Origin: Terebella lapidaria
Taxonomy: Eukaryota; Annelida; Polychaeta; Terebellida; Terebellidae
Length of the DNA stretch: 64,000 nt
Direction of reading: 5' to 3'
NCBI GenBank assembly: GCA_949152475.1
Contig: OX424566.1
Location: 8,951,177-9,015,176, forward strand
The notes under the pieces were generated by a model. It made no database searches. It was not told the DNA's origin and saw only the letters and a list, made by a program, of their open reading frames with translations. Below, in pieces: positions 19,992-54,214 of this stretch. Each line of letters begins with the position of its first letter. Within the stretch, counting starts at the first letter, position 1. A program made the position numbers and the translations under genes.

Positions 19992-21216
19992 TGTATATTC
20001 TGCAATTGGTTTCAAAACGTGCTAATAGCACAATATTATAATGATGTCAATAGAAAACCTACGATTAATATTCGATTTACAATTCATTCATTTCAATGTT
20101 CTGCAATAAATCTATACAGATCCGACCTATTACCAATAGCAAAGTATCAGCTACGCTGATGTCCATAAAGTTTGTAACTACATGTACATATTCGGAAAAC
20201 AGCTGGCCAGTATTTAGTTATGTTATGTTGTGTAATAATGAAAAGCGAAGTTGGCCGGTATCTGCATATCTGGTGAGATGTTCGATGTTCTCTCCCTTGA
20301 AACTCTTGATAAACCGGCGCTCTGTCCATAACGAATTTTTTCCCTAGTCCCCTGGAGATCCGGTTCATACAGAGTACACTGTAAAAGCCATATTTGCTGT
20401 CCTAATACTGCTGAAATGGTGACCACTTCCCAGAACAATTGTCTTTGTTGTGAGTGTATCAAACGAAATGCGGTTGGTACCATCGGGCGACAATGGCATT
20501 CAAACATAGATTCTTCGTTCGGCATGAACCTCCAAGATCTGTTTTGTTCCAAATTCGTTAAATGGTTCTCATTTTATTACACTGACATGGTCAGGCAGCT
20601 ACATGGTCAGGCAGCTATATTCTGAACTATGCAGCTAGCTGTATTTAAATTTCTGAACTAATCATCATCTAACTCATTTGAATGGAAGAAAAAACACACA
20701 AGTGTGGATACACATCAAGTAGTATATAACTCCCGAATAATATTACACTTGATTACGACACATGTAATGAAAAAAATCCATGCTAGTCATTTTCATGAAT
20801 ATTTCTTAGGATTCAAATACAGCTCGTTTTTCATTTCTCTCATATTTGCCAACTCTTATGTAGTGCCATTATCCTGGATTCCCTGAGCCTTGCATTATAT
20901 TAGAGTGGAATTTGTTCAAATTTCAAAGACTATAAATATCTGAGACAAACTTCATAATGAAAATACCTTATTCACCTAGATATCTAAACATTCAATATAT
21001 CTCCGAAATGTGACGAAGTCAAATAGACTTCAAAACTAATAAATTTATGTCCTTGTACAGACTGCATCAGCATGATATTCAAATTAGCAAGAAACAACAG
21101 TGTGTGGATTCGGAATGGCGTCCCAAGGTAAGATTCATAGATGTGTGTTTAAGTAACTTACCCCATGTACCCCATTTACTGGCACATCTGCCCATACTAG
21201 TACTTCTGCAAATCGA
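19992..21216. other. Intergenic stretch without a gene
   Basis: AT-rich, no convincing frame. A segment at 20200-20387 resembles a Tigger/pogo end in reverse orientation (see 5772-5945). Confidence 0.45.
20200..20387 (-). mobile_element. Second transposon-end-like fragment, Tigger/pogo type
   Basis: On the minus strand begins ACAGTGTACTCTG followed by spaced CCGG blocks (GAACCGG, GCGCCGG, ATACCGG), as in 5772-5945 on the plus strand. No partner terminus or transposase was found. Confidence 0.28.
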
Positions 21217-22294
21217 CGGGTGAAAACCAGAAGGTCGTAAGCGCCATTTTCACAATTTTACAAGAGCGTCATTTTTCATCCTGTAGAATTAGTTGTTGCG
21301 ATCCTTGAAATTTCTTCTGCCACATGCTTTGTAATAGGGATTGTTGGTGTCATTTCACTTATTTCATTCACCATAGCTATTATTTTCATTTAGTTATCAA
21401 TAGAAATGTAACTTACGACGTTCTGGCGTCACGTCTAAACAAGGCATAGCTATGCCTGGTACCAGCCAGAACATCGTAAGCGACAACTTTAAATGGGAGA
21501 ATCTCTGCCAATGCATGCTTATTCTAGTTTTACTTTTGGAAACTAATCTCATCTCATCGATTTCTTAGCGAATTTCTCGCTTTCAAGCATGAACAATGCA
21601 AATGGTGTTTACGACGTTCTGGCTCGTCACTATTCCGCAAAGAACTAACACTGACGAAACGCCAGAAGGTCGTAAGTGTTTTTCGCGAGGCCACAACTCC
21701 GTTCTATTTCAAAATACAACAATGACACGAGTTCATGGCGCAATACGTGGATAGTGGATCATACCCGGTGAACGAAATTAAAATTGGAGCAATGTAAATG
21801 GGTTAAATCGATAAAACATCGTAACCGCCACACGAGTTCGCCAGAACATCGTAAGTGCCAGTGGCCGTGAAAGAACGTCAGCCCAGGAAAAACATTTTAC
21901 TGTATCTTTTGGCATTGTTTATCCTGAATAGTGAGCGTGTTATACCTCGAATGATAACCATAGGTATTTATATTTCGTATTATTATGAAGCCTTCATCAT
22001 CATGACAATAACGTGATAGAATACCAAAGCAAAATGCTGTGATTTAGGCTATGAAGCCCACATGAACCTTTTACTGGATAACGAATGAAGTTTTGCGCTC
22101 TCTCGCGGGCATTTTCGCGGGCAATTTTTCGGCGTTCTCATAATTTTTCCCGACTCACTTATCTCCGGCATTTGCTGGTGTTATTTTCAATTTTGATGAA
22201 AATTCATAATCTCAGGTACGTTATATCATACTTCGTGTCTGACATTACCGCGTTTTATTTTATTGAAATCCAGCAATTATTTGACTCATTTCAG

Positions 22295-22399
22295 TACGGT
22301 CAACCATTTTCCTCTTGGATAACACCCTACAATTTGGCACCGAATCTACTGTACAGATATCTAAGAAACAAGTACGCAGGCGGGTGTGTCGTGTTTCAG
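22295..22399 (+). other. Isolated exon-like segment
   Basis: A 105-bp open block bounded by CATTTCAG upstream and CAG|GTACTAGT downstream encodes 35 residues (starting YGQPFSSWITPYNLAPNLLY). The composition is protein-like, but no partner exon or family is recognised. Could be an upstream exon of the gene at 27041 or chance. Confidence 0.18.
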
Positions 22400-25189
22400 G
22401 TACTAGTAACTAGAAGTATTAGACAGACTTTGTGAGGTGATGGTCTAATGGCTAGATGGTAAATAAAAGAAGTCAAGTTCAAGCAAAAGGCCCAAATCGA
22501 AAAAAATGCAATATTTTTTTTTCTGAATAAGACTTGTGTTCTAAGACTTGTCTTCTGAATAAGATTTGTGTACTTTCTTGCGTGTCCGATGGTCGTACGA
22601 CCAAAACCCCCGATTATCCCGAGGTCGAAAAAACATTTTTCAGGGGTGTCTTGACTTTACGGTTTCATATAGCGCAATATTCGGTACCATATTATGGGGC
22701 CAAGTTTCAATGAACGCAGTTCTACTCAGCAACCACTGTCCTGATCCCTCCTCCCATACCAACTTATTGGCCGTAAACACTTTTGAATTATTAATATTTC
22801 TTGGGAGGTCGATTTTGGGGGAGGTTCAAATTATGTCCCTGAAAATACTGGATAGAAAATCCTCACTAACAATTAAACACCAAGAAATATCCACATTTTA
22901 TTTCTCATGTTTGTTCTTCTTCTTTCTTATCTTTCAATCTTGCCCGGAGTAATTTTAACATGACATTTTGATATACATGGATATATAGGGGAGGAGTATT
23001 GACTGACAGTGTAAGACACTGGTGATATCACAGCGACATCACAAATGTGACGTCGTGGCTCTTGGGTGTGAGTCATATTTATTGTGGGCGAATTTAAATA
23101 TTGTTAAATTGATCACTATAATGATGAAGTTCATCATTTCAAAGTGATATAACAGTGTTTCTTTTTTTTTTGTGTTCACCATGCGTGTGTTTGCAATTAA
23201 ATTGCCGTATATTGGTCCTAATAGTAGCACGGCGAGCCAAAGCAAGATATCCCACAGCAGCGCGGGCAAAAATAAGGTCAAAATTTAGGTCAAAAATGAG
23301 ACACTGAACAATATACCCATAGCCTTCGATTCCCCTTTATTATGATTCAAATGTCATAATATGTTGATTGGAATTCCCCAAGATTTTATTAGAAAGATAT
23401 GACGTGAAATATAGGGTTACGAAAAGCGAGTATTTTTGGGGAAAGGTGGGGCGTGCTTCTATTACGGTGCGTGCCACTATTGGGAGCAATATGGTATATA
23501 TCCTAGTATGCCTACACTGATAAGTCATTCTTTCTCGTAAAATTAGGCCCAACTAAAAAGTTGTCATGGTGAATATTGTCAAACCTTGGAGCAGGCAATT
23601 TCAGTGGTGTAATCTTTAATTATAATTCCAATGCCTTAGGACTCCTTAACATACATACCAGAAGTGCTACACAGCCTACAAATATTCCTATGTTTTTAGA
23701 GGGTGGGTGGGTGGGCTTACGGGGGTTACATTGGTTTGGGATTTCTTAACGTTCTCTGGTCGTCATGCTGTTGTAAGTAATATCAGTTGCTAGTTGAAGA
23801 GAGATAACGCTCGGTTGCGTGATGGCACAGTGTCGTGATAGTTAGAGCGCTCGCGTTCGAATACAACTTAGGTGTTTTATTCCCGGCTACATGCTGTTCA
23901 GTATCTATTTTCTAGATCTATGCTGTTTTTGTTTTGCAATATCCGAAAAATTCATTATAATTAATATTTGGTTATTTTTTTTTTTATCCAAGATATGCAT
24001 TTTACAGTGTGTTTTGATATACAGATCTACATGTAGGCCCACATAAAAATATAACTTTAGTTGATGTTTCAGTTGTATTATGAGTGGGCCTATGCCTATG
24101 GCATGCGAAAGGGGCCACAGCCAAGTGTCATAGTCTCAAATACTAAGAGTAGTCCTTTGGCATGCAATCGCCAACTGCTGAAACTCATTCAAACCATTTT
24201 CAATTACTTATGCTGCAAATTGCTCGGGAGATTTTTTATTTTCTAATACCGGACATTGTTCAGGAGATGTGTTAGGGCCTAAATGTAAAAATATGCGTAA
24301 ATTAATTCATAGAAGGTAGGCCTATGCGTCGAGCTTGGCTCATGGCCGATTATATTTATTAGTGTTGTAAATAATTATAATTGTAAATAATTGAATAATT
24401 ATAATCTTACAGTATTCCTTAGAATAATAGTTTTTGTAACTTTGTAACCTGAATCGATCGATCGTATACTACAGTCGCCGAACGATCGCTTTATACATAG
24501 GCCTGCAGCAACGGATTTTTTTAAACAATCATATTATATACTATGTTGAATTATACAGTATTGATATCATGATATGCATATTGAGAAGATTGTCGATTGT
24601 ACATCGGCACGGCACATGGCCAGTCCATCGTTCCATATATGGAACGCAATAGGCTTACGATCATACCTGTAGGCTGTAGGCCGGGCCTACTTGTAAACCT
24701 ACATGTGAGGTTTTGGAATTCTTTATGCAGCAGTGGCAAAGAATCTACCACAGGACATAACAATGGATATGGCTAGATCTACTGCTCAAGGCCCTTGAGC
24801 GGGTCCCAGACCCTTGCCTAAGAATTTGCACCCCCCCCCCACCCCTGCCCTCCCCCCCATCCCTCTCAAATTTCTTGATCCGCCCTACCGCCTGTATCTA
24901 TATAGGCCTATTATATGTAGGCCTAAGAAAAGTGTCGACAGCAATGGTTAATGAGCAGAGGAAGGGTGCACGTCACCTTTTATTGCTCATTGACTGGACA
25001 GACCAGAGGCGAATCAACTATAGATGAATGGTGCATTTTCTCTCAGATTCTAAATGCATTATCAATGAACAATTCACATTATGCAACATATACGAACCAA
25101 GATCAATGGCACATCATGTCCGCGAGAAGGAAAAAAAAATAGCCCAAAGGCTAAGACAGGTTCCCGGACAACATATGTTTCATACATTA

Positions 25190-25780
25190 AATATTAGTCA
25201 TTTTCCCCGTGACTTTGAAAATAAGGTCTCTGGTCAAATTCAAGGTCATCAAAATATTCAGCATACATAATTCCTTACCAATGCACACTTGATTCCTATG
25301 CTGAAACGTCAGTAATAAGCAAAAATATTAGCCAACTTGTGCTCTGACCTTGAAAATGAGTTCAAATGTCAAATTCAAGGTCATGACAATATCCAGCATA
25401 TATCATTTCCTATATGTGCACAATTGATACCTAAGCGGTACACAGTCGATGATAAGTCGATAATAAGCGAAATATTAGCCATTTTGTGCTCTATCTTCAA
25501 AAATAGGGTCGAATGTCAAGTTCAAGGTCATCAGAATATTCAGCGTATATAATTTTCTGCATGTCCACAATTGGTTCCCACGCTATATAGTCCAAAAGAA
25601 GCAAGATATTGGCCATTTTGTCCCATGTGCTTGAAAATGAGATCGAAGGTCGAATTCTATATGTCCAAAATTGACTTCTAGGCTGTAAAGTCAATAAGAA
25701 GCGAGATATTAACTATTTTGTCCTGTAACCTTGAAAATGAGGTCAAATATTCAGTATATATCCTTTATGTTCACAATTGA
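25190..25780 (+). repeat. Degenerate ~140-bp satellite
   Basis: The block TTGAAAATGAGGTC...TTCAAGGTCATNANAATATTCAGCATATAT recurs at about 25243, 25377, 25525 and, more diverged, 25640 and 25740. A further unit is at 26460-26560 and an inverted one at 34215-34310. Copies differ widely, so it is old. Confidence 0.75.
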
Positions 25781-25805
25781 TTTCTAAGCTGTAAAATCGG
25801 TAATA

Positions 25806-25899
25806 ATGTATCAATCTATCACCACCGATACAGTCAGATTTTAATGATGCTAATAACAAACGTAAAATACAACATTTTTCAATTGATACAAAGCACGAC
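25806..25899 (+). repeat. 94-bp direct repeat, copy 1 (copy 2 at 26331-26428)
   Basis: TATCAATCTATCACCACCGA...AAAGCACGACCAA occurs again at 26331-26428 with about 10% differences. The SINE lies between the copies. Too long for a target duplication; more likely one satellite unit on each side. Confidence 0.75.
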
Positions 25900-25921
25900 C
25901 AAATAATTGATCTGAAAGGAT

Positions 25922-26236
25922 AAGACGTAACCGAGTGGTTACGTGCGAGCGCTTAGTCGCTCAATTTGAACCAACAGCTATCGCCGGCGTGGGTTCGATC
26001 CTACGTCGGGCCGCACGTGCGAGCGCTTAGTCGCTCAATTTGAACCAACAGCTATCGCCGGCGTGGGTTCGATCCTACGTCGGGCCGCATGTGCGCTAAT
26101 TGTAAGGGGATTTTTTCCCTGTCCTCTCTCCTCTCTGACCACTCTCAGAGGACTAAAGTCCAAACTATGAAGCGCTTTGAGAATGTGTGTAAAGTTGATA
26201 AAGCGCTATATAAGAACCAATTATTATTATTAGTAC
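25922..26236 (+). mobile_element. tRNA-derived SINE with internally duplicated head
   Basis: The head has a box A-like TAACCGAGTGG and box B GGTTCGATCC. The tail ends AAGCGCTATATAAGAACCAA followed by (ATT)n. A 74-bp segment carrying box B (25941-26014) is repeated exactly in tandem (26015-26088). A second copy of the family is on the minus strand at 54319-54668. RNA polymerase III transcription and LINE-dependent copying are properties of SINEs in general. Confidence 0.85.
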
Positions 26237-27040
26237 CTAATCACAAGCCAAAAGGCTACTGAGTTGATGGCATCCCCGGGGACAGTTTTAACGTCCACCA
26301 GCAGTGACACCGGCTCAGTGGTATAAATGTAAGTATCAATCTATTACCACCGATACAGTCAGATTTTGATGATACCAATAACAAACGTAAAATACAACAT
26401 TTTGCAATAAAAGCAAAGCCCGACCAATAAATTTCTCCAAAAACATAGATAGATACGATTTAGCCATTTTGTCCTGTGGCCTTGAAAATTGGGTCAATGG
26501 TGAACTTCAAGGTCATGACAATATTCAGAATATATCCTTTCCTATTTGTTCACATATATTTTATATGTTTTAGGTAACCTATAACCCTTCCACATGTCGG
26601 GTAAAAGTCCTCGAATGTCAGCACGTGTTGGCGGTTACGATGTTCTGGCTTTGACGCAAGTGCGCTTACGAGGTTCTGGCGTCACCATTGTGAATCACAC
26701 ACGGGCGCTTGCGACCTTCTGGCAAAAATCGCTGGTGCTTACGACCTTTTGGTGAACACGTTTTGTGCAATTTGGCGCTTACGACTTTTTACAAAAAAAA
26801 GAATTTCCGGTTTTGGTTTATTGAGAGCATGATCAGTCATCGATTGGATGATGACAAAGAAGCTCCTGGCTTGATTTGACTGATTAACTCATTTTCACCA
26901 AAAATGGCGCTTACGACCTTCTGGTTTTTACCCGTCGAAATATTAGTATAACAAAACCATAGGCATGTAGCAATGAGATATTCCAAGATTTTAATATGTT
27001 TGTTCCTGGTATTGCCTGGATGTTTCACACTTTCTTCCAG

Positions 27041-28365
27041 CTTCATCAGCAAATGATGTGAAAACATCATTTTTTGACATCCAGCTACAAGGGAATGAGA
27101 AGAAAGATATCACATATGATGTGGAACAACAACTCAAGCACAAGCCATTCCATGATTATCTGTCAAAACTGAGTCCTGTATACCTACAGGATACTGTGCT
27201 GCTATTCAAAGATTCTGATCAGGACTTAATCCTAAATCTAGAACCACTGCAAGCAAATATACATGAAGGGTTGAAGACAAAAGGTTACCATGGCAACTTT
27301 ATCTCAATAGGGTCTTCGAAGGGACAGCTCAAAATTCAATCTTTAAATGAATTGGACCTAGCATTTTTGATTCATCTAGACAAGTCATACATCAGCCAGG
27401 TCACCTCAAGGTCACATGTCTACCATGTAGAGAAAGGAAACCAGACCATAGATGCCAGAGAATTCCGAGATAGGTTTGGTAAAGATATCCATGAGATCCT
27501 AAGCAACATAAAGCTGCCACCCAGACTAGCACATAGTGGCTACTGCTCACCAAATTTCAGCGGGATACGGTACAATGGCCCAGCAACAACAATGTTATTG
27601 GTCTGGGATCCAGAGGGTGAAGCGCGTGAGATCTCAGTAGATATTACCCCCATGCTTCATCTGCCAACAGAAGACGAACAAGCTATTAAAGAAAGAATCA
27701 GGCAGAAAACACAACAAATGCGAGATGAGATGCCACAAGAAATATTCCGATTCGAGGGCATATATATGTTTCCCAATCCAATCTCAAATCAATGGGAATT
27801 GACCACAGCCTGCTATGAAGCTACAAACTTGTTGCCCCACCTTTCACGTGACACACCTTTCAAGAGGTGTATCTTGATGTGTAAGTCCATGGCAAGTTTG
27901 ATGTCATCCATCCCAACCTCAGCACACAAGGCACAAGAAACAAGAATAATGAAGCAAATTGCTGGTTCGTTGGTTGAACAAGACGAGCAAACACCAGAAT
28001 TGATGAAATATGGCCACGCATTCCTCACATCTGATACTGGCAAGAGTCACAAGGAGATGACCAAGAAAGCAATATCCATAAACACTGCTGCCATTACTCA
28101 CTTGACACTAGAACTAGCGAGTTGTATACACGGAGCATTCACATCAACACATGATCCAGACGAAAGACAGAGAATCACACTGCAACTGGTCACAGATATT
28201 TTCTGGTACTTATCGTCAGGGAAGCATGACGTACAACACTTTTTCTTGGATTCCCAAATCAGTTTGCTAGCTATTGCCGCCTGGGCCCGGCAGATGTACA
28301 ACACTCAGCAACTGGTGGACAACGTAAAAAGCCAGTGCTTGCTGACAGCCCATTTACTGTCACAA
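27041..28365 (+). CDS. Exon encoding a Mab-21/cGAS-like nucleotidyltransferase domain
   Basis: Open frame beginning after acceptor TTTCTTCCAG (27040). An in-frame stop lies at 26992-26994 and no in-frame ATG precedes the fold, so one or more upstream exons must exist. Numbered from 27058, the nucleotidyltransferase signature is GSS at 85-87 followed by E98 and D100 (NELDLAF), with the third metal ligand D195 in ISVDITPML. YNGPATTMLL precedes it, as in Mab-21/cGLR proteins. The C-terminal helical half (190-436) fits the Mab-21 helical lobe. Family members sense nucleic acid and make cyclic dinucleotide or related signals; activity here is inference. The exon ends CAA|GTGAGT in phase 0 and joins the Schlafen-like exon. 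Confidence 0.72.
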
Positions 28366-28545
28366 GTGAGTATAGTTTTTGCTTGAATTTGATTTCTATT
28401 TTAGATTACACAATTCAATCAGGGGGGGGGGGACAGGCAAAAACAAGTTTACTATAAATATCTAATCTTTATAGTAGGTGTGTACTATAAATGTGAAGTT
28501 TCTCGCTGTAACCTTCATAATGATGACTCTTTTGGCATTATACAG

Positions 28546-30981
28546 TGGAATATTGAAGAACTCGACCAAGACGTGAATCAGCACGTAGACGAAGTACCAG
28601 ACGAGGATCTACAGTACATAGAGGACACATTCCGTGTACGAGCACACTTCAATGGAGAGGGATGTAACCAGACATTTGGCATCATCTTGAAGATCTGCAA
28701 TGCTCTGGGAAATACAATGGGTGGCATTATCCAGGTGAACGACCCAGGCTCAACTGATATGAGTAAACAAAAATTGTGGATGAAAGCCTTCAAAGAGCAT
28801 GCTGCACACTGCAGCATGAAAGAAAATATTCAGTTTCTGGAAGAAGAACATAAGACCAATGCACTTGTCCTGCATGTGCCAAAATTTGCCCACAGAAAGT
28901 CATTAACCTCATACAAGGTTCACTCACCTGCTGTCGGAGACCAAGGTGAAGAGATCAAAGACACTGCAGCTTACAAGAAGCAGCAGTGTCACATGAAACG
29001 TCAGATGCACTACTTCATGGAAAACAAGCAAATCAAGTCAACAGGCACAACTGTTGAACACGCCAGCTACCCCGGTGTGAGAGGAAAGACGAATTTAACC
29101 ACACATGCAGATGAACTGTCGTCAGAACCACAGGAATATGGAAGCTCAGACACAAGAGAGACTCAGATAAAAGAGGATGCTCACATCTCCTTGATACCTA
29201 CTGGAGTGACTGTGGACGACTCTGATTCTGTCCGAATAGACAGTGTGTCAGTTGAGGAGGCCAACAAGAAACTAAAGAAGCACAAAAAGCTTGGATGGAC
29301 AACAAGCAAGCATGACTGGGAGAACAATCTAAGACAGATTAACATTGATGTTGATACCAGTGCTAAAGAATTGATTGACAGCAGGAAAGGTACCTTGAAG
29401 CAAACATCGCCAGGGACTTATATCCCTTCTAAAGAGACCATTCTTCGTCGTTATCCACAGATGGATCAACTGCTCAGTTCTATCGAGAAAAAATTCCATT
29501 CTAAACATGTACTCATACTAGCATGTGATTCCTGGCCCGGGCAAGTTGATATTGGAATGACACAGCCTACCCCAATCCACCATGTACTGGATGTTGTGAT
29601 ATTTGATCAGTTCGGCACAATAGAGATTTGGTGTGTGGTTGACAACATAGATGACACCAAGTTATCCCCAATTTGGCAGTATGCAGTGAATATAGGTCAG
29701 TCAACAAAGTCATCATTCCTTCATCTGGACCAGAACTCACACATTCAGTGTAGTGTGTACTTGTCCTCTGACAAGAGACTGTATCGGTCTTCGAAGGTAC
29801 ATCCACAACAAGATGATGTCAGGAAGAATGTCATGTACCTATTGGCCTGTTTGCTAATTCGTAAGAAATCACACTTTCGAAATTGCCTAGGGGAAGACAT
29901 TGGTGTATACTTAACTGGCCAACAAATGGAAGTTATCCTGCAATCAGCCTATACATCGATTGTCTTGATCGAAGGACCTCCTGGTTCAGGAAAAACTTTC
30001 ATGGCGTTTCACATCTGCTCAAAGTACAGCCCCCATCAGGTTCTATACATATGCACTACAGTGGCGTTCCAAAACTACCTGCACTTCCAGCAGAATTGCA
30101 CTTCTGAACTGGTTCAGAACGAGGCCGACATGAATAGATTAATCAAGAAGGCGAATCTGGAAAACTGTAAATGTATCATCATCGATGATGGACACCAACT
30201 TGCCTGCTCGTACAAAGTCTGGAGAAAGTTCCTGCTGATGGCAAAGGAGAAATCATGTCAAGTCTACATTTTTGCTGATAGTCAATATCAGAACTTCAAC
30301 GCTGTCGATACTGGAGTCCTGAATAGGTGCATAGGAGAAATGACGAGAATGAGTTTTGCCTCAGAACACCATCTGCATGACATCCACAGAAATAGTAGAA
30401 GAGTAAGTTCGTTCTTAGTTGCATCAACTGCAGACATTCACACAAGTTCAAGATCTCCTGAAGATACGATAGGTTGCTCCTCTGTACATGAAGGGCATGA
30501 TGTGGAGGTGCAGTATATCAACAACCTCCTTGAGGAAAGCGAGACAAACGGATTGTTACAGTTGATATTACAGCTATCAGCAGATGTGGTGACTGTCCAA
30601 GACATAGCAATACTCGTTGACACAAAACATGCCAGAAAAGATGTAGATAGCTTGAACGAAATCCTTAAGCAATTCACAGAATTTCCAGTCCATTCTGCTG
30701 GACATTTTCCGATTAAAGGAATTACTTTAGACACCCTGGACAATTTCCTTGGTTTCGACAGGAAAGTCTGCATTTGTATTGTCAGAAAGTTGGCGAAAGA
30801 CACAATATCACTCCGAAATTTATTTAAAAAAAAGATGGACTTGACACGTCATCTGCAGAACCCCAAGTACAGAACCTTTGTGGCATCTCGAGGTATTTCC
30901 AGAGTCATTTTTGTGGTCAATGTCCCAATCAGCACTGAAGTCGCCAGCTTTATGAAGATGGATTTGCTTCCCACAGAAGTT
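28546..30981 (+). CDS. Exon encoding Schlafen-like AlbA, SWADL-like and SF1 helicase regions
   Basis: 812 codons after acceptor TTATACAG, in phase 0 with the preceding exon across a 180-bp GT-AG intron. In order: an AlbA/Schlafen-core-like block (ILKICNALGNTMGGIIQV, nt 28676-28736); a charged linker; a SWADL-like block (ACDSWPGQVDIG, 29521-29556); and an SF1 helicase with Walker A GPPGSGKT (29974-29997), Walker B-like CIIIDDGHQ (30172-30198; DDGH in place of DEAQ), FADSQYQ (30271-30291), HRNSRR (30384-30401) and a weak motif VI near 30890. This order matches long (group III) Schlafens, RNA/tRNA-acting antiviral factors in mammals. The altered Walker B and motif VI may mean reduced ATPase function. 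Ends GTT|GTGAGT. Confidence 0.72.
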
Positions 30982-31034
30982 GTGAGTATGGTCAGATTTC
31001 TCAGCTGTAAACTCGCCTTTTCACTCTAATTTAG

Positions 31035-31094
31035 ATAAACCTGATAGATTTATGTATGCAATGTACTATGCATGTCAGAATACATGTAGTGTAG
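31035..31094 (+). CDS. Probable last exon of the nucleotidyltransferase-Schlafen gene
   Basis: A 53-bp intron (GTGAGT...CTAATTTAG) would lead in phase 0 to 19 codons (INLIDLCMQC...) and a TAG at 31092-31094. Without splicing, the frame would instead end at 31027-31029. The donor is strong and the intron very short, so this end is provisional. No AATAAA is obvious just downstream. Confidence 0.4.
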   Translation: MNLIDLCMQCTMHVRIHVV

Positions 31095-34000
31095 GCTCCC
31101 AGCATTTTTATATTGCATCCTTCACCACAGAATACATTGTGACTGGCGCGAAGATGAACTATATTGCATTCCAGACTTGTCGTTCCAACTGATATAATGT
31201 TTTGGGTTTGCCGTAGGCTGAAACAGTGACAATTTTTGAAAGATATACAGTGATTTCGTTGAGATATGACAAGATATTGCTTGGATGTTGTGGTGCATCT
31301 TCTGTGGATCATTTTGGATATATTTTTGAGTGTCCAGCAACGAAATGTTGTCCACAGTTGTGGAAACCGCAGGTCAGTTATTTGAGATGTTCATTTTTCA
31401 CATTTTGTTTGCATATTTCAAAAACTCACTGTGTGGATTATTTTTTTCGAAATACAATATAATTCAATGATTATATAGCAACTGCCTTCGATACCAGTCA
31501 ATATTGTTTGAAAACATATTCCATTTTAAACATGCTAAATTTACTGAATGAGACATACCCACATCAAATGTAATGACTATAACCAGTCCTCTTGGAATTT
31601 TTGCTCATTAGAACAGGCACGCTTAAATACAGGAACTGTATCCATCACAGGCAGATTTAAACCAAGGATAAAAGTGCAAGATGGACTAACAATTATACGT
31701 ACAACATGGTATATCACTGATTATTTTCTCAAAACTAGACTATTTATGCACAAGCGACCCGGAAAATGTACTCGATGTGGGCTTTTAAGCGTGATTTGGG
31801 CATTTGTTTACATTCGGCTTTGATGGATACACTTTGATTGTTTATATACAAAACCGGTACAAAATGTGTATTAAAACGGATGGAAAGACAACTCGGACAA
31901 TTGTAATCGTCAAAACAATTGAACACACCTTTTGTTTTCTTGCATTAGAAGTGTTGCACAAAAATTTAGTTTTGAAAAAAATATTGCATACAATCAAAGG
32001 CAGTAGCTTCAAATATAGGTATGCTTGTTGGATTAGCAAGGAAAGACATTTCTATTCATTGGAAAAAATTTTGACACACACCATACCAAAATTTGCACAC
32101 AAAACCGAACAAATTCAATATGCAATATTCGCTAGGTGTCTCCCCAATCACGATAGCTTTTTTTTACACTTGAGAGTACAAAACTATTTGTGTTGCCAGC
32201 CAAAATATTTCGGAATGAGGGCTTTGTGTGACTTTTTTATTGGGACATCTTGGAGGATGCATAACACAACGGAGACCAAAATATGTCCAGCAGCTTCTGA
32301 AATGATATAACCCTTCAGGGTAGGCTACACATTTTAGAAAATAGTTAATATGCATAATTACCCACAAACTTTAGAATTACCAAGGAACAGAAGTTTAGTG
32401 CCATTGTAATGTAAATGAAATTTTGAACAGTGACTAACCATGACAAATATCATGAACCTTTTGCATATAATGAATGGTTGATGAAACAAGTATGAAATAA
32501 AATGTCACAGGTAGGCTTTGACTTGCCAAATGTCTCCAAACGATCAGAAATTTGATGCTTCCGTTTGCCCACATCTGTTTGCCACAAGCTATTACGCACA
32601 ACACGACATTCGTGCCATGATGGTGTGTTTGTGCGGACAACAGCCAAGCGTTTTACTTCCTAAGTACCTCATTCTTATGTGGATAAAATTGCCAAACGCC
32701 TTACTAGGATGTAAGCTGTTCTGTGACATGGAATGATGCCACACAATGTTTAAGTGATTTAATGCTCTATATTCCAGCATTTGAAACATAAATGTCATGC
32801 CCTGTTGTTGTATTGTTTACATATAAATTTCAGAGTTTTCCCTTTTTTCGAGGTGAATGTCTCTAGCAAAAATTTACCCATACATTTTGATTTACCCTTT
32901 TTTGAGACCAACGGGTACGGGACTACTTCGCGAAAATCCTACCTACTGCTTTGAGCCAACTGAGCTTAATTCTGAACGTTTTGGTTTGGTCATATCAGCA
33001 GTCCCTCACCTCATACAAGAAGAATCACAATGATAATTATGTCATTTGAAATGCTTATTTTTGCAGAGTTAATAGCCATACAATCATCACACGTACATGT
33101 ACATTTATATCGCCCAGCCTAGAGGGAGCTAGTGTCATCGCAATGTGGAATTTTTGTTATCTGTGTCAATTTTCCATGAGTTCAGTGTCATCACAGTGGA
33201 TAAGGGACACTTTCATTCACGATAGTTGCAGGATTGCATGATGGATGAAGGTCATTGGAAAACATCGAAAAACATTTAGGGTTCCAGACCTTTGGTCTGA
33301 TAACCTATTGTCGTGGCGTTGCATCCGTCGTCCATCAGTGCCGATGGTGTCGTCCGGCTACATCTTTATCTTTGAAGTTTACAGTCGAATCTTTCTGAAA
33401 TTGTGCACAAATATGCCGAATAATATTTCAAGAGAGGTGTTTGTTTAGTTTTTATGTTCCACCATTTTTTCCCAAAACAATACCACATGTCCGAAAGCGT
33501 TGATGTTGCGACCAAGAAATATTTTAATATGTACGTAGCCTACGACTCGTGGGCCTATACTCACGTTTAGGAATGCACACCATAATGTATATGATAATGG
33601 TGTCACAGTGAAATTACGTACATCAAACCAATCATCTTAAGAATCATTCTTTAAAATTATTCTCTTTCTGTATTGTTTGTAAGTCTGACAATAATATTGT
33701 CTGTAAGTCTGACATCAGTTGTGTCTGTTTTGAACTGTTGAGTATGTAGACAGACATGCGGACACCCTGCTATTGGATCTTGGTCAGAGCCGCTATTGTG
33801 TTGGTATGTGGTATGTTATGCAAATAGAAATCGAGGAGAGATCGCGATGTATATGGTTATGCAACCCTACACCCGGGTACCTTCAGTATGTGGTTCTTCA
33901 AGCTGAATATCAATTTAAAAACCGAGTTCTTACTTTTACTTTTATTGTAAGATGCACCGTTGCTCGATGCACCTTATGGCTGTGAACTAGCTTTCATTCT

Positions 34001-34436
34001 TTGTCGTTCACTTTAGCCATACACGCATATTATGAATATTCCCTTTTACATGGATTGAAAAACAATGTCATTATGTTTTTGTCTTTTATATACACATTTG
34101 CTCCGTGGGGCTATTGACGTTGTCATTTCCCCCTCGATTGTTTGTAGGACTGCAATACCCTCGAAGGCAGGCTCAATCCCTGAATCGAATTCACAACTTG
34201 AGAATCAATTGCGTACATACTGGAAATGATATATATTGAATATCCTTGAGATCTTGAATTTACCAGTGAACTTATTTTCAAGGTCAGGGGACAAAATGGC
34301 TAATATCTAAATCATAAAAAAAAATATATTGTCTGGTAACTTTCCTCATCCTTTAGGCTAATTTTTATAATATAATTGTAACAATATAATATATTATTGT
34401 AAATCTTCACAATCAGCGATTATTCGTGTCACCTCG
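31095..34436. other. Intergenic stretch without a supported gene
   Basis: AT-rich. The longest open frame (31804-32310, plus) is Lys/Ile/Phe-rich, resembles no known family and has no splice context I trust. One inverted satellite unit is at 34215-34310. I see no RNA gene. Confidence 0.45.
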
Positions 34437-35077
34437 ATAGTCTCGTCGGTACACTAGGTGTACATGGGACGCTCAAATGTACGATATACATGGAACGCTC
34501 CACCGTACGATGGACATGCCACGCTAGACCGTACGATGGACATGCAAGGCTCCATCGTACGATGGACATGTGAGGCTCCATCAGACGATGGACATGCGAG
34601 GCTCCACCATAGAAAGGACATGCGATGCTCCACCGTACGATGGACATGCGATGCTAGACCGTATGATGGACATGTGATGGGATGCTCCATCGTACGATGG
34701 ACATGCGATGCTAGACCGTACGATGGACATGTGATGGGATGCTCCATCATACGATGGACATGCGATGCTAGACCGTACGATGGACATGCGATGTTCCATC
34801 GTACGATATACATGGGACGCTCCAATGTACGATATACATGGGATGCTCCACCGTACAATGGACATGCGACACTAGACCGTACGATAGACATGCAAGTCTC
34901 CATCGTATGATGGACATGCGAGGCTTCACCGTAGGAAGGACATGCGGTGCTCCACCGCACAATGGACATGCGATGCTAGACTGTACGATGGACATGCGAT
35001 GTTCCACCGTACGATATACATGGGACGCTCCAATGTACGATATACATGGGACGCTCCACCGTACAATGGACATGCGA
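34437..35077. repeat. 30-bp minisatellite, about 21 units
   Basis: Units are variants of CCGTACGATGGACATGCGAT plus GCTCCA or GCTAGA. Higher-order blocks of several units recur, for example around 34630-34780 and 34800-35060. Because the period is a multiple of 3 and lacks stops, long repetitive frames appear on both strands (for example 34454-34969 minus, decapeptide MSIVRWSXAC-like); these are not genes. The CGTACG core is palindromic. Confidence 0.92.
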
Positions 35078-35390
35078 TGCTTACTGCAGTTAGTGTTGTA
35101 GGTGCACTAGGTGTGAAGTTGTCTGTCTTGCAAGAGGGGAGTATTTAAGTTCACGTGAGTCCGAACACATGTGCGAACGCTGAATACTGACAGTTGCCAG
35201 GTGATCTCTGGTCTTGTCTTGTCGATCATTCACACTAACTGACGTATAAACCTTTTTTATTATTATGAGCAGTTTTGGTAACTTTACATTGTGGCTAAGC
35301 GACAATATGTAACACGACAACATCGCAGGTACTAGATTCATCCCCTGAAAAGTTTTAGAGTTTTAGTGTAATTTTGTGGATTCTGGTGCA
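35078..35390. other. Unique non-coding spacer
   Basis: No gene or repeat is seen. Position 35391 is where similarity to 43378 onward begins. Confidence 0.5.
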
Positions 35391-36739
35391 TTAAAATTAA
35401 CAGGAAAAATTTCTTCCGACCACGCCACCTCCCCCCCCCTCCCCCCTCTCGGAACGCCCATGCTTGCTCACACTCCATAGGTTTCTCTCTTCAGATCCAG
35501 CCACAATCAGCTGGCCTGTGTCAGCAGGATAGAAAAACCTTAATAATTTAAGATACGGTTCACTGGGAAACAGAACAAACTACCTTCACATTACAGATCC
35601 ATCATTTAAATAATTTTCCTCATAGCAGCATGCATGGGGACATCAATAAAATTTGCCAAAAGGCAATATTGGTCACTTTTTATTAAGATGATAGTTACAC
35701 GTGTAAAGTTTACATTACCCCCTTCTTACAATGTTGATTCCCAACATGCTCTGCCCGCGCCCAAAACTGGGAAACACGACGAAGGCATGCAGGCGACGAA
35801 GGTTCGCATGCAGGAACCGGGAGGAAGCAAGGTGCCGACACCCAAAAGTCACGGCGCAAAAGACTGAGACCTTAAGGGTCCGTTTTGGAAGAATGGGGAA
35901 TGACCCCTGGACTTACAGAGTAAGCTACAACGCGCTCTACAATTTTGAACAAACCCTAATAAAAAAACTAAAATTTTGACCGAGGTAGTCCAAAAAGGAT
36001 GATGACCGTGGAAAGTCATCTGCCGAAAGGGACGGTGTGTCGAGTCTTTGGAAGATCTTTAAGGTTAACCTTTGAATTGGAAAATTTCGTAAAACGACCC
36101 ACCGAGTGACCAAAAGTAGTAGTACCTCTAGAAAGGGCTGCCGACCGCCCGGCCGGCCGGCTCCTCAAACCTGCCGAGCGAGTCTCAGGCAGGGTTGAGC
36201 CGCAGAAGCGACTCCGGCACGCCGTCGTGTTGCCGCAGTGACGAGGCTACACTAGCCTTCCTCCATCGTCTGCTCGTCTGTGCCGCCCTTCTTGGGGCTG
36301 GGCAGCGGAGACAGGTCACTACGCTGCGGAGCTGGGCGCTCTCGGAGCGGAGCTGGTAACTGGAATTCCAGCTGCACGGGCAGACGAGGCAGGCCTGGCG
36401 GCGGTTGCAGGGGCTTCACTGGAGAGCCCTGCGTGCCAGGTCCTGTCGGAGCCAACTGGAAGGAGGTTGGCAGAGATGTCGCGCCTAGGTTGGCTACAGC
36501 GGCAAACATCTCTACCACATCGCGGGTGCGCTCCTGGCCGGCCGTCCGTTCTCCCCATTTTTTGACTAGAATGGGGTAGATGGCCAGCTCCAGGGCTGCA
36601 TCCGCCCGCTTGGCAACTGACTGGTTCAGGGCGGACGACGCCGGGTCCTCGACGCCTTGAAGGAGGTGAGTCTGAGCAGCCTCGGCTTCGTGTAGACGAT
36701 TCCGTAGCTCCTCGTTCTCAGCCACCAGCCGCTGCACCT
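35391..36739 (-). repeat. Duplicated retroelement 3' segment, copy A (left part)
   Basis: Matches 43378-44726 with about 2% differences, and continues after the Gmr1-like insertion at 43250-43377, where it joins the start of copy B head to tail. The minus strand carries the last ~160 codons of the coiled-coil/Pro-rich ORF (36739-36252), then non-coding sequence, a purine tract near 35720-35735 (AAGAAGGGGGTAA on the minus strand) and a TGTAAACTTTACACG start typical of an LTR. Confidence 0.85.
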
Positions 36740-37569
36740 TGTGACATATAGTGGTCGAAACATGAAACATATGCGGTTGAATGATAGCATAATTAAGCGA
36801 CACGCAATAGTAATAACATCTTGAAAGTGTTGAAATGTGCATTACTGTTTAATAGGAGACGTTGTTGAATGTTTTTGTTAATACTATTCTTGTTTGTTTG
36901 CTCTTGTATTTTGTTTTGTACACAGCATAGTGCAGCTACTCATCAACGATTGTGGACCGGCTGCCACGCGTGAGTGATTTCATCGTGGAGGAGACCATCG
37001 TTGCTACGTATACACCAGCCACTTTTGGGGCAGCTATGTGACAAGCACGGCATGCGCACCTTCGCCTCTGTCTACTTGTGTTCGTCATATTCTACGACTG
37101 TGTATTACACGACCTAGTATTTTATCCGCCAAACCGTGAGTGTGTGGACTACACGTTACTGGGCTTTGAGGTCATTACACATACTGCTACGTGGACTGGA
37201 TATTGGAGCGGCTACACTCTGTCAATTCACCATCTCCTCGCTTCGCTCGTGGTTGCTGCATCGCCATCTTCGCGTCGCGTCGTCACTCGACCAGGACTAC
37301 ACGTGTTACGGTGACTGTGCTCTGACTGTGCTTTCTTGTAATTTTCATTTAGTAACTCTATTGTAAAACTTGTATGCATGTTGTGTGTATGTAGGTGAAC
37401 GAGTGTTATGGTATAAAATTGCAGAAAAACATAACTCCTTGTCTTTGTTGGCACACGAATTATTAGTTATTCCAAATTTCGGTACAAAATCCGGTATTAT
37501 AATCTGTGCTTGTGTTATTACCAATACTCCGTGTATTATTGCAATGCACGGAGGTGTTTCTACGTCACA
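36740..37569 (+). repeat. 5' LTR of the Gmr1-like element
   Basis: 830 bp, TGTGACATATAG to TACGTCACA. It differs from 42420-43249 at about five bases. Short frames in it recur in the other LTR and are not genes. Confidence 0.95.
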
Positions 37570-37574
37570 GAAAT

Positions 37575-37592
37575 TGGGGGCTCGTCCGGGAA
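37575..37592 (+). other. Primer-binding site, tRNA-Pro type
   Basis: TGGGGGCTCGTCCGGGAA, 5 bases after the LTR, complementary to the tRNA-Pro 3' end except possibly the last base. It is the same primer class used by murine-type gammaretroviruses. Confidence 0.88.
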
Positions 37593-37633
37593 CTTACCTA
37601 TGTTTTGTCGTGTGCCAATGATAAACAGCAATC

Positions 37634-38566
37634 ATGCCTACATTGGAAGAATTCATACAAACACCGTCATTGCAAGAGTTAGAAAAATTCAAAAAAGAAG
37701 AGTTGATGGGCGTAGCCAGACGAATGGAAATTGATGTCAAACGATCCATGAGAAAGTGTGACATCAGTAAGCTGATTGTTGAATGCCTTGTCGATGAGGG
37801 TTTGTTGCCAGTCGAGTCACTTGAAGGTTACTCTGAAGTTTTTGTGGTTTCCGAGAGGGATCGGGTACAGATGGAGCAGGAAATGAAGCTGAAGGAGATG
37901 GAGTTAAAGCTGAAACAATCCGAGGCTGAAAATGAAATGCAATTACGCCTCAAACAGATTGAAGCTGAAAAAGAGATCAAATTGAAAGAACTTGAGCTCC
38001 ATCTCCAAGCTGAAAAAACAAAACAGACTGGTCGTTTTGATATCAGTACACAGATTAAACTGGTTCCCCAGTTTAATGAACTTGAGGTCGATAAATATTT
38101 CCAATACTTTGAGAAGGTTGCAAAAAATCTTGATTGGCCTGAGAAAATGTGGCCACTGTTGCTGCAAAGTGTTTTTAAAGGTAAGGCTCAGAAAGCCTAT
38201 TCCTCTCTTACAGTTTCTGAAAGTGCTGATTACAAGTGTGTAAAGGCAGCCGTTCTCAAAGTATATGAACTGGTACCAGAAGCTTATCGTCAAAAGTTTC
38301 GGGGGTATCGTAAACAAGACCAACAAACACACGTTGAATTTGCACATGAGAAAGAAATATTCTTTGACAGATGGTGTCAGTCAAAGGAGGTTGGCAGTGA
38401 CTTTGGCAAGTTAAAGCAGATAATTCTAATCGAGGAGTTCAAAAGGTGTGTTACCGACAGTCTTAAGACTTATCTTGATGAAAAGAAGGTTGAAGTGCTA
38501 CAAGACGCTGCCATCCTCGCTGACGAGTATGCACTTACTCACAAGTCAAACTTCCACAAAAGCTAA
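37634..38566 (+). CDS. Gag with coiled coil and SCAN-like capsid domain (Gmr1-like)
   Basis: 310 codons from an ATG 42 bases after the primer site. Residues 1-60 are helical (LEEFIQTPSLQELEKFKKEE). Residues about 75-135 are a Glu/Lys/Leu-rich coiled coil. Residues about 140-300 are the capsid region with SCAN-like features (YFQYFEKVAKNLDWPEKMWP, GKAQKAYSSL, AYRQKFRGYRK). The vertebrate SCAN domain is reported to derive from Gmr1-like gag, so the likeness is expected. A TAA closes the frame at 38564-38566, yet the same frame continues to 38758 and contains the start of a zinc knuckle, so the nucleocapsid is cut off unless the stop is read through or is a mutation. Confidence 0.88.
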   Translation: MPTLEEFIQTPSLQELEKFKKEELMGVARRMEIDVKRSMRKCDISKLIVECLVDEGLLPVESLEGYSEVFVVSERDRVQMEQEMKLKEMELKLKQSEAENEMQLRLKQIEAEKEIKLKELELHLQAEKTKQTGRFDISTQIKLVPQFNELEVDKYFQYFEKVAKNLDWPEKMWPLLLQSVFKGKAQKAYSSLTVSESADYKCVKAAVLKVYELVPEAYRQKFRGYRKQDQQTHVEFAHEKEIFFDRWCQSKEVGSDFGKLKQIILIEEFKRCVTDSLKTYLDEKKVEVLQDAAILADEYALTHKSNFHKS

Positions 38567-38758
38567 TCTGACATGTCTCTCAAAACAAAACCTAGCTCGT
38601 CACCGTCAGGCGATGGTCAAAAGTCAGTGGAGAAGGCTGCTGACATTGGTTCTGCAGGCAAGGCCAAAGATTTGGCACAGACTCAGACCAAGCAATCAGG
38701 TCCTGTGTGCCATTACTGTAAAAACGTGGCCATGTCATCTCCGACTGCTATGCTTTGA
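38567..38758 (+). other. Nucleocapsid segment between the gag stop and the pol frame
   Basis: In the gag frame this stretch is Lys/Ser/Gln-rich and ends with CHYC (38708-38719), the first half of a zinc knuckle. The second half (H and the last C) is in the pol frame from 38731 onward. Moving back one base between 38720 and 38731 gives correct CX2CX4HX4C spacing. The site includes T AAA AAC at 38719-38725, which resembles but does not match a classical slippery heptamer. Confidence 0.6.
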
Positions 38759-41700
38759 AAAACAAAAAGGCACGGGAAGCCAATCCCAATGCATTTGTCA
38801 TGAGCGGTCCAGTAGGCCATGCAGCATTTCCTGATTCTGGATGCATATCTGATCACTTTCTTTCTGAAATGGAAGGGCCAATGTATTGTGGCAAAGCTGG
38901 GTGTGTAGAGTTTGAAGAAGTTCGTTCTGAGTTCGTACCTTTTGTTTCTGAGGGGACTGTGGCATTAGATAGTGACACATCACAACCTGTATCAATACGT
39001 ATATTGCGGGACACGGGTGCAACCCAGTCATTAATATTACAGGATGTACTGCCTTTTGGTGAAGATTCTGCCACGGGTGAGCAGGTTATTGCCCAAGGCA
39101 TTGAAGGTGGTTTTGTTAACGTTCCCCTCCACAAGGTGAATTTGGTGTCAGATTTAGTTTCGGGTTCCGTTGTTGTTGGTGTACGGCCGTCGTTGCCCAT
39201 CAAAGGTGTAGCATTGTTGTTGGGAAATGATCTAGCAGGTGGTCGTGTAGTAGTTTATCCCAAAGTAATTGTTGATCCAATTGATTTGCCAACAACGTTG
39301 TCCAGCATGGATGAGAAATTAGAAGACACATTTCCGTCATGTGCTGTCACGCGGGCTCAAGCTAAAAAACTTTGTGACACAGTGTCAGGTCCCGTTGATG
39401 AAGTGGTTGATCTATCCAACACTTTTCTAGATTCCATTGAGAATTCTGTTGCTGGTGATCGTTTTGTTGAAACACTTAGTCCTGGGAGTAGTACACATCA
39501 TGCTGGTGATGAAAAGTCACTTTCTCGAAAGTGCCTCATAGAAGAACAGAAAAGGGATGCTAAAGTCTCTCGGCTCTTTGAGTTTGTCCTTACAGAGGAC
39601 GAATTGTGTAAAGTTCCAAAAGGGTACTTTGTGCGAAACGGTGTCCTGTTAAGGAAATGGAGACCTCCGCATGTTCCTGCATCTGATGAGTGGGCTGTAG
39701 TTTATCAAGTGACGGTGCCTAGGGCTTACCATTCTGAGGTGTTGAGGTTGGCTCATGAGATCCCCATGGGTGGTCATTTGGGTGTGAACAAGACATGTGA
39801 CAGGATAATGAAACACTTTTATTGGCCAGGGATCAGGCAGGATGTGTTGGAATATTGTCGCACATGCCACACATGTCAAATTGTGGGGAAACCTAACCAG
39901 GGTGTCCCAGTAGCACCACTGCGTCCAATTCCGGCTTTTGAAGAAGCATTTACTCGTGTCATCGTGGATTGTGTCGGTCCTCTCCCAAAGACTCGATCTG
40001 GAAACGAGTATCTGCTCACGATTATGTGCGCATCAACACGCTTTCCGGAGGCCATACCGCTAAGACGAATTACCGCCTCAAGCATGTCAAAAGCTTTGAT
40101 CAACTTTTTCACACTGTTTGGACTGCCAAAAGAAATTCAGACCGATCAGGGTTCTAATTTTATGTCTGGTTTGTTCCAGCAAGTGGTGTACCAACTAGGG
40201 GCAAGGCAAGTTACATCGAGTGCTTACCATCCACAATCGCAGGGTGCCCTAGAAAGGTTTCATTCTACTCTAAAAACCATGCTTCGAGCATACTGCTTTG
40301 AGCATGAAAAAGATTGGGATCAAGGAGTGAATTTGCTGCTATTTGCAGCCAGAGAAAGCGTGCAGGAATCATTGGGGTTCAGCCCGTATGAACTTGTCTT
40401 CAGACACACTGTTCGTGGGCCTTTGAAGTTATTGAAGGACAATTGGTTAGAGGAAGGACCCTCAAACCTGAATCTGTTGGAGTATGTCTCAACCTTTCGG
40501 AGTAGATTGTCTAGGGCGTGTGAGTTGGCTCGTGAGCATCTGAAGTCAGCTCAAGTGAAGATGAAGGGGTTGTATGACAAGAGAGCCAAATCGCGCACGT
40601 TCAGTCCTGGCGACAAAGTCCTGGTGTTATTGCCAGCACTTGGGCATCCTCTGAAAGCCAGGTATCAGGGCCCATATGAAGTCGCTAGGAAAATCAGTGA
40701 CTTGGACTATGTTGTCAAAACGCCTGACCGACGCAAGGCAACTCAATTTTGTCACATAAATATGCTAAAAGCATATCATGACAAGATGGCCAAAGCCGAA
40801 GTAATGGCTGTTGTTTCAGTTCCTGATCCACAAGATGAGCATGTTGGCTATGATGAAAGCAATGTTGGTGTTGATGAAAGTGATGTACCAAAATGTGGCT
40901 ACCATGTGAAACTTCGCAATTCCGAGATATTATCTAACCTTGATTTGAAACTGTCTCATTTGGCAGTGGAGGAAAGAGGATCTCTCATTGATCTCTTACT
41001 GCAGTATAGCTGTATCTTTCCAGACGTTCCCCGTAAAACTCATGTGGCTTTTCATGATGTAGATGTGGGCGAGGCTCGTCCTATCAAGCAGCATCCTTAC
41101 AGAGTCAGTCCTTTGAAAGCAGACCAAATGCGTGAGGAAGTGGCATACATGTTAGAGAACAAAATTATAGAGTTGAGTCAAAGTGACTGGGCCTCACCTT
41201 GTGTGTTGGTTCCCAAGCCAGACGGTTCTGTACGATTTTGCACAGATTTTCGCAAAGTCAATGCCCTGACAAAGACTGACTCCTATCCCATTCCGAGGAT
41301 AGATGACTGCATAGACAAAATTGGCAAAGCCAAGTACATCACAAAATGTGACTTGTTGAAGGGTTACTGGTGTGTTCCACTTACTGACCGAGCAAAAGAA
41401 ATATCAGCATTTGTCACGCCAGATGGCCTATATAACTACAAAGTCATGCCTTTTGGTATGAAAAACTCACAAGCTACCTTCCAAAGAATGATGAACAATT
41501 GTCTCAAAGGGTTAGAAGGCGTTGATACTTACGTGGACGACATAGTAGTGTACGCTGATACTTGGGAGCAACACATTATGCGATTGGGTCAGATGTTTGA
41601 CAGACTTAGAGACGCTCATCTGACAGTGAACCTTTCCAAGAGTGAATTCTGTCAGGCCACAGTAACTTACTTGGGTCATGTTGTCGGAAGGGGCGTGGTT

Positions 41701-42333: not shown

Positions 42334-42410
42334 ACAGAACTGTTCTTGGTTGTCGTGCTTGAAAAAAAAAAGTTTTCATGTTCAGTGAAGTTCCAACTTT
42401 TTTTCTCTAT

Positions 42411-42419
42411 GGAGGGAGA
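42411..42419 (+). other. Polypurine tract of the Gmr1-like element
   Basis: GGAGGGAGA directly before the 3' LTR TGTGACATA. Confidence 0.85.
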
Positions 42420-43249
42420 TGTGACATATAGTGGTCGAAACATGAAACATATGCGGTTGAATGATAGCATAATTAAGCGACACGCAATAGTAATAAGATC
42501 TTGAAAGTGTTGAAATGTGCATTACTGTTTAATAGGAGACGTTGTTGAATGTTTTTGTTAATACTATTCTTGTTTGTTTGCTCTTGTATTTTGTTTTGTA
42601 CACAGCATAGTGCAGCTACTCATCAACGATTGTGGACCGGCTGCCACGCGTGAGTGATTTCATCGTGGAGGAGACCATCGTTGCTACGTATACACCAGCC
42701 ACTTTTGGGGCAGCTATGTGACAAGCACGGCACGCGCACCTTCGCCTCTGTCTACTTGTGTTCGTCATATTCTACGACTGTGTATTACACGACCTAGTAT
42801 TTTATCCGCCTAACCGTGAGTGTGTGGACTACACGTTACTGGGCTTTGAGGTCATTACACATACTGCTACGTGGACTGGATATTGGAGCGGCTACACTCT
42901 GTCAATTCAACGTCTCCTCGCTTCGCTCGTGGTTGCTGCATCGCCATCTTCGCGTCGCGTCGTCACTCGACCAGGACTACACGTGTTACGGTGACTGTGC
43001 TCTGACTGTGCTTTCTTGTAATTTTCATTTAGTAACTCTATTGTAAAACTTGTATGCATGTTGTGTGTATGTAGGTGAACGAGTGTTATGGTATAAAATT
43101 GCAGAAAAACATAACTCCTTGTCTTTGTTGGCACACGAATTATTAGTTATTCCAAATTTCGGTACAAAATCCGGTATTATAATCTGTGCTTGTGTTATTA
43201 CCAATACTCCGTGTATTATTGCAATGCACGGAGGTGTTTCTACGTCACA
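42420..43249 (+). repeat. 3' LTR of the Gmr1-like element
   Basis: 830 bp, matching 36740-37569. Followed by ACCT, the right target duplication. Confidence 0.95.
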
Positions 43250-43377
43250 ACCTCAGCGGTGACCTTGGGGGAGGTGGAGACCTGTGCGGACTCGGCAGCT
43301 CGGGCGGCAGCTCTCCCTTGCTCGAAACTTTGCCGCTCACGCTCCGCCACCAGAGTCCGGTAGCTCTCAAGGCTCTG
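43250..43377 (-). repeat. Duplicated retroelement segment, copy A (right part)
   Basis: The continuation of copy A after the insertion, equal to 44723-44850 with a few changes. At 43377/43378 it meets the start of copy B (TTAAAATTAACAGG), the tandem junction. Confidence 0.85.
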
Positions 43378-47648: not shown

Positions 47649-47731
47649 ATTCAGTTACATTGTTTTTACAGCATTGAGGCTGGCAGTTATTCTGCATGCA
47701 CAGCAGTATAACGCATCTCCGTGGAAACGTC

Positions 47732-54170: not shown

Positions 54171-54180
54171 CACACTCACA

Positions 54181-54213: not shown

Positions 54214-54214
<1 letters not shown>

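Follow-up and report, generated by a model that had tools for sequence, protein, structure and literature searches.

A 64,000-nucleotide stretch of the genome of the annelid Terebella lapidaria (assembly GCA_949152475.1, contig OX424566.1, positions 8,951,177 to 9,015,176 of the forward strand; hereafter the window) holds one copy of a multicopy gene family that almost certainly encodes an apparently single protein of about 1530 amino acids (aa). In the predicted protein, a nucleotidyltransferase (NTase) is followed by a Schlafen-like part, comprising a SWADL-like region and a superfamily 1 (SF1) ATPase, and then by a WD40 propeller. An earlier sequence-only reading of the window had proposed two exons, an NTase of the Mab-21 or cGAS-like receptor (cGLR) type and a Schlafen-like helicase, joined across a 180-bp GT-AG intron of phase 0. 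Those two exons and their intron were placed exactly, and the fused gene is present; as modeled here, it extends beyond them both 5′ and 3′. That reading covered 27041 to 31094 and missed a start exon and the WD40 propeller. The joined reading frame of the window copy runs unbroken through 1532 codons, for a predicted product of 1532 aa.

The fused gene and its family

When the NTase exon (exon 1) served as the query for a translated search across the 761.6-Mb genome, at least 100 matches were obtained (92 of 108 candidates scored). We defined the family as the 31 matches with at least 47% identity, which merge into 29 places, including the window. Weaker matches were excluded, among them matches of 37 to 40% identity on C16 that have no Schlafen-like match near them. 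The search with the Schlafen-like exon (exon 2) returned at least 63 matches (52 of 211 candidates scored), of which 52 were used and 11, covering its N-terminal part, were dropped. Exon 2 lies downstream of exon 1 on the same strand and within 30 kb in 28 of the 29 places, and the exception contains stops. It was also downstream in all 20 paralogue loci that were fetched, about 0.2 kb 3′ of exon 1 in 18 and about 21 kb away in the other two, so the fusion is not a product of chance. With splice sites and phase conserved as well, the proposal of one gene with an in-frame fusion held up.

Within the window, exons 1 and 2 are both open reading frames. Exon 1 is preceded by ..TTCTTCCAG and begins at a splice acceptor, without a start codon, while the GT-AG sites of the 180-nucleotide intron are kept in all eight aligned copies (the window and seven others). 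No methionine occurs before residue 47 of exon 2 in any of 18 copies, so exon 2 has no start codon ahead of its N-lobe. Given this and the conserved splice sites and phase, we rejected the idea that the two exons are adjacent genes. The broader alternative, that they are separate genes or that the window copy is a dead pseudogene, draws on transposon insertions in the introns and on stops in some relatives, and we consider it very improbable in view of the missing exon 2 start, the unbroken 1532 codons, and the selection acting on the gene. Both exons are under purifying selection. For exon 1, 204 of 210 pairs give a median ratio of nonsynonymous to synonymous substitution rates (dN/dS) of 0.25, and for exon 2 the median over 162 of 171 pairs is 0.35; the pairs excluded have a dS that is undefined or no higher than 0.05. 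Comparisons of the window copy with other copies give 0.22 to 0.40. Trees of the two exons (22 entries each) agree in their main clades and disagree in the youngest, where exchange between copies is likely. The second half of exon 2 in locus L015 is closer to L009 than to its exon 1 sisters L014 and L018, a pattern that suggests gene conversion between copies.

Comparison with paralogues identified the start exon, ATGGCGTCCCAAG, followed by the donor GTAAG. A pattern match for the ATGGCGTCCC start exon recovered it from the window and from 13 of the 20 paralogue loci fetched. Intron 1 of the window copy carries a DNA transposon-like insertion that is not present in L009 and L010, where this intron measures about 0.2 kb. 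At the other end of the two-exon unit, exon 2 closes with a phase-0 donor in the window copy and in each of 18 paralogues (19 of 19). Because this conserved donor precedes it and propeller exons lie further 3′, the TAA stop at 31027 to 31029 was rejected as the C-terminus; it is probably not the true protein end, and a short isoform is possible. A candidate 3′ exon at 32714 to 32793, similar to a stretch in L016, was also rejected: its acceptor lacks conservation, and no reading frame in common was observed. Coordinates of the gene model are collected in Table 1.

Table 1. Features of the fused gene in the window (positions counted from the first nucleotide of the window)
Feature	Positions	Strand	Details
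Start exon	21061..21127	+	Acceptor TTGTACAG; 5′ untranslated region whose in-frame stops close the frame ahead of ATG 21115; 13 coding nucleotides (MASQ plus 1 nucleotide); donor GTAAG at 21128
DNA transposon-like insertion, intron 1	21213..26938	.	38-nucleotide terminal inverted repeats, 97% complementary
NTase exon (exon 1)	27041..28365	+	cGLR/Mab-21-like nucleotidyltransferase (predicted); GSS 27310-27318; catalytic E/D/D codons 27349, 27355, 27640
Intron, NTase to Schlafen-like exon	28366..28545	+	180 nucleotides, phase 0, GTGAGT..ACAG
Schlafen-like exon (exon 2)	28546..30981	+	AlbA-like N-lobe (by alignment), linker, SWADL-like region, SF1 helicase/ATPase (Walker A GPPGSGKT); ends at phase-0 donor GTGAGT 30982
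29-kb intron	30982..60054	+	Contains retrotransposon-like open reading frames
WD40-propeller exon 3	60055..60411	+	Phase 0 at both ends
WD40-propeller exon 4	60634..61101	+	Stop codon TAA; possible polyadenylation signal AATAAA 61613-61618

Long open reading frames at 9016 to 14483, 37625 to 42333, and 49317 to 51860 have, by eye, the look of Ty3/gypsy-type retrotransposons, and the last two lie within the intron preceding the propeller. A retrotransposon or viral origin of the fusion is not favored, as these reading frames fall outside the exons.

The WD40 propeller

Phase-0 splice sites into the propeller were found in all four loci read: the window and L024, L030, and L031, the only 3 of 23 fetched paralogue loci (L009 to L031) with the propeller inside the fetched stretch. 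In these three, a phase-0 donor meets a phase-0 acceptor across an intron of 911 nucleotides (L024), 186 nucleotides (L030), or 156 nucleotides (L031). L024 is a compact equivalent of the window copy: its predicted product, encoded in 6 kb, has 1541 or 1545 aa according to which acceptor its second exon uses. A profile of the last exon searched against the PDB returned WD40 proteins, the best being PkwA with a whole-sequence E value of 5e-8 that is summed over weak stretches, none significant alone. The Pfam WD40 model matched three of three sequences weakly (best 6.6e-4), with the window copy under the cut-off.

A genome-wide search for the propeller gave 55 matches, merged or cut to 49 places. 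In 27 of 28 fusion loci, a propeller on the same strand follows within 100 kb with no other NTase intervening, exon 4 being 0.6 to 85 kb from exon 2. On C13, 17 of 19 fusion loci have a propeller within 50 kb, compared with a mean of 1.35 and a maximum of 6 when position and strand were randomized 5000 times over the interval from 5.0 to 15.2 Mb. Viewed from the propeller, a Schlafen-like exon on the same strand lies no more than 100 kb upstream of 44 of the 49 places, and on C13 a Schlafen-like exon is followed by 26 of 30 propeller places (simulated mean, 3.75; maximum, 13).

We asked whether the WD40 exons might instead form a separate gene downstream of an NTase-Schlafen fusion. The 29-kb gap in the window would fit such an arrangement, as would the five propeller places whose upstream 100 kb holds no Schlafen-like exon on the same strand and a further 14 of the 49 that are preceded, within 100 kb, by Schlafen-like genes lacking a nearby NTase match. 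Set against this are the phase-0 donor kept in every copy, the phase-0 acceptors in all loci read, the introns of 156 to 911 nucleotides in three of them, and the 44 places that do follow a Schlafen-like exon, and we think a separate gene highly improbable. Since the nearest upstream same-strand Schlafen-like gene has no NTase nearby in those 14 places, the propeller is not specific to the NTase-Schlafen fusion; in this genome, it seems to be a more general tail of Schlafen-like proteins.

The nucleotidyltransferase and Schlafen-like parts

Exon 1 of the window carries GSS..ELDL..SVDITP. All 21 NTase copies share the GS loop and the three acids (E, D, D) without variation, as G-S, E-L-D, and V-D-I, and the GS and triad are seen too in six sampled more distant members, L029 to L034. 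The Pfam Mab-21 model (PF03281) matches all 21 copies at an E value of 0.1 or better, the best being 2.1e-5. Exon 1 is predicted to encode a cGLR/Mab-21-like nucleotidyltransferase with an intact catalytic triad. Elsewhere in the genome, a tandem NTase array of four near-identical matches with a period of about 2.2 kb occupies C1:84409190-84416878.

The published rule for animal cGLRs combines GS with [E/D]h[E/D] ... [E/D], and its strict form asks for h[QT]GS, a first spacing of X8-20, and X50-90 to the third acid (PMC9980059). All 21 copies depart from the strict form: isoleucine stands where [QT] is required before GS, and the spacing to the third acid is 94, over by four residues, with the first spacing of 11 within range. 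We therefore call the enzyme cGLR-like rather than a cGLR. The sequence-only reading of exon 1 as a Mab-21/cGLR-like nucleotidyltransferase is supported. These departures and weak Mab-21 scores would also suit a Mab-21-like fold that does not signal and serves as a nucleic acid binder or scaffold, with the helicase-like ATPase restricting invaders; messenger synthesis by Mab21L1-related proteins is described as not understood (PMC9980059). A scaffold would not need the triad and GS, so their invariance disfavors a mere scaffold, and we regard a nonsignaling NTase as rather unlikely.

All 18 copies of exon 2 hit the Schlafen group 3 helicase model (PF09848) at an E value of 0.1 or better (best, 1.1e-7), a weak match overall, and exon 2 also fits the general AAA model. 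Its best matches among solved structures are SLFN5 and SLFN11 (profile E values of 4.9e-10 and 3.3e-8). When the SWADL region was tested, SWPxxVDIG aligned to SWAVDLG of SLFN5 within a stretch with an E value of 8.2e-10. Walker A (GPPGSGKT) and the DD of Walker B are invariant in all 18 copies. A match to nSTAND3 around the P-loop is under the cut-off in the window and over it in L035, a more distant locus described below. Of the AlbA-like, SWADL-like, and SF1 blocks claimed earlier, the last two are borne out, and the AlbA-like block appears to amount to no more than an N-lobe with no separate statistical support; a profile search of this N-lobe against the PDB found no Schlafen.

The AlbA_2 domain (PF04326) was not found in the N-terminal 400-aa parts of any of the 18 fusion copies at E values up to 1. 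Alignment of the fusions with free-standing Schlafens leaves a gap where the AlbA_2 C-lobe would sit. As a control, both free-standing Schlafens examined in the same genome do match AlbA_2, L036 above the curated cut-off (2.1e-6) and L037 below it (2e-4), and both have a pair of glutamates spaced, by eye, like that of SLFN13. Because the C-lobe with its catalytic glutamate pair was not found, we describe the fused part as Schlafen-like. L036 (C5:30.84 Mb) and L037 (C16:30.85 Mb) are long single-exon Schlafens with open frames of about 1000 codons, laid out as N-lobe, AlbA_2 lobe, SWADL-like region, and helicase. Schlafen-like helicase exons are greatly expanded on C5, C13, C16, C17, and others (at least 63 matches with one query; for another query, 87 of 199 candidates were scored), and Schlafen-like open frames in this genome span about 240 to 1820 codons.

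In line with the sequence-only reading, which coupled sensing and effector action in one polypeptide, the NTase would sense nucleic acid and the Schlafen part would act, in the same chain, as an effector that cuts RNA or tRNA. Mammalian Schlafens do cut tRNA and rRNA (PMC5862951, PMC9482658), and the domain order is that of long Schlafens. However, the catalytic residues of SLFN13 sit only in the C-lobe (PMC5862951), and it is this lobe that was not found in any of the 18 fusions; a Schlafen RNase effector is therefore unlikely, and this account of the protein as a whole seems to us quite improbable.

A candidate receptor and its place among known systems

A second, more distant NTase clade also includes a fusion. 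At L033 and L035, a diverged NTase (about 28% identical) is followed, across a likely 125-nucleotide phase-0 intron, by 772 open codons of Schlafen-like sequence. In L035, this Schlafen-like part is related to exon 2 (E value, 1e-35) and matches PF09848 below the cut-off, and ankyrin exons (L035 914-2713, C5) begin 0.8 kb past its frame. Among the first 29 of at least 100 matches of this second NTase set, 10 are followed by a Schlafen-like match no more than 40 kb away, a count given without a chance level. The genome also encodes exons for the STING ligand-binding domain (12 matches). Such exons exceed the Pfam cut-off at several places: L038, L039 (C2:5.72-5.74 Mb), and C3:50.76 Mb.

NLR and STAND receptors place an output domain before a P-loop NTPase and C-terminal repeats such as WD40 or ankyrin. 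The fusion shares this layout, and L035 adds its nSTAND3 match; it differs in that the window match is under the cut-off, the NTPase is closest in the PDB to Schlafen SF1 helicases, and the output would be a nucleotidyltransferase. A layout of repeat sensor, ATPase, and signal-making enzyme suggests an NLR-like receptor with a nucleotide messenger as output. In the mechanism we propose, the propeller (perhaps ankyrin repeats in the second clade) and the nucleic acid-type ATPase would sense a trigger and gate the enzyme; once activated, the N-terminal enzyme would make a nucleotide second messenger, which might be read by STING. The enzyme would then be the output and the Schlafen and propeller part the sensor and switch, the opposite of the order first suggested. 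We give this mechanism about an even chance, and we lean slightly toward the explanation as a whole, that is, the architecture together with an NLR-like receptor of this kind. More tentatively still, the family may represent a new class of animal immune receptor in which an interchangeable WD40 or ankyrin sensor at the C-terminus is coupled to a Schlafen-derived ATPase switch that has lost the nuclease lobe and to a cGAS-type synthase as output; Schlafens and cyclic-nucleotide signaling would then be physically one system in this lineage.

Several observations weigh against this explanation, beyond the departures from the strict cGLR motif and the wider spread of the propeller given above. The protein is predicted from genomic sequence. 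The window copy scores 17.4 bits against PF03281 (E value, 0.005), below the cut-off of 24.1, and PDB searches with exon 1, including by profile, returned no cGAS match; a single-sequence AlphaFold2 model of the exon was unusable (predicted local distance difference test score, 34.8). For PF09848, the window copy is barely over the cut-off (24.2 bits against 24.0), with L024 (21.5) and L031 (21.8) below it. L010 and L030 carry a stop or frame break in exon 2, and the copy at C13:7965469 has no propeller nearer than 672 kb. The ankyrin link comes from one locus, with a putative splice into the ankyrin exons, and at 19 of the 29 places of the second NTase set the next 40 kb downstream holds no Schlafen-like match, which means that some of these NTases are not fused. 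Finally, STING need not be the partner of the fusion.

If the receptor explanation is true, cGLRs would gain an NLR-like mode of activation that responds to proteins or processes instead of bare nucleic acid, and the family would reveal the capabilities of a Schlafen without its nuclease. So far, cGAS-like enzymes and Schlafens have been studied as separate immune systems, and the fusion is a testable candidate for why Schlafens are linked with DNA sensing. A mussel study names Schlafens among the genes that rise after Vibrio. Consistent with the earlier view that the joining is undescribed, we found no description of a cGLR-Schlafen fusion in searches of the open-access literature, which covered few subscription papers, and the word Schlafen occurs nowhere in the main texts of PMC9980059 and PMC10732462.

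Among known systems, animal cGLRs resemble the fusion in their GS and E/D/D nucleotidyltransferase and in their large copy-number expansion, with more than 200 copies in some bivalves (PMC9980059). According to the same source, 87% have no added domain and a minority carry ankyrin, TPR, or death domains; a WD40 fusion was not met in the available parts of that paper, and the fusion described here misses the h[QT]GS and spacing rule. The long (group 3) Schlafens SLFN5, SLFN11, and SLFN13 likewise have a SWADL-like linker ahead of the SF1 ATPase, and the AlbA-like N-lobe resembles that of local Schlafens by alignment. Unlike them, the fusion showed no AlbA_2 C-lobe with nuclease residues, and its Schlafen-like part sits between an N-terminal NTase and a C-terminal propeller. 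In the sources at hand, the nearest and only published link that we met between cyclic GMP-AMP (cGAMP) signaling and a Schlafen domain in one chain is the Orthopoxvirus poxin-vSlfn (PMC7971493, PMC8204762). That protein is a viral countermeasure in which poxin breaks down cGAMP; the animal protein, in contrast, has a predicted enzyme of the synthase type.

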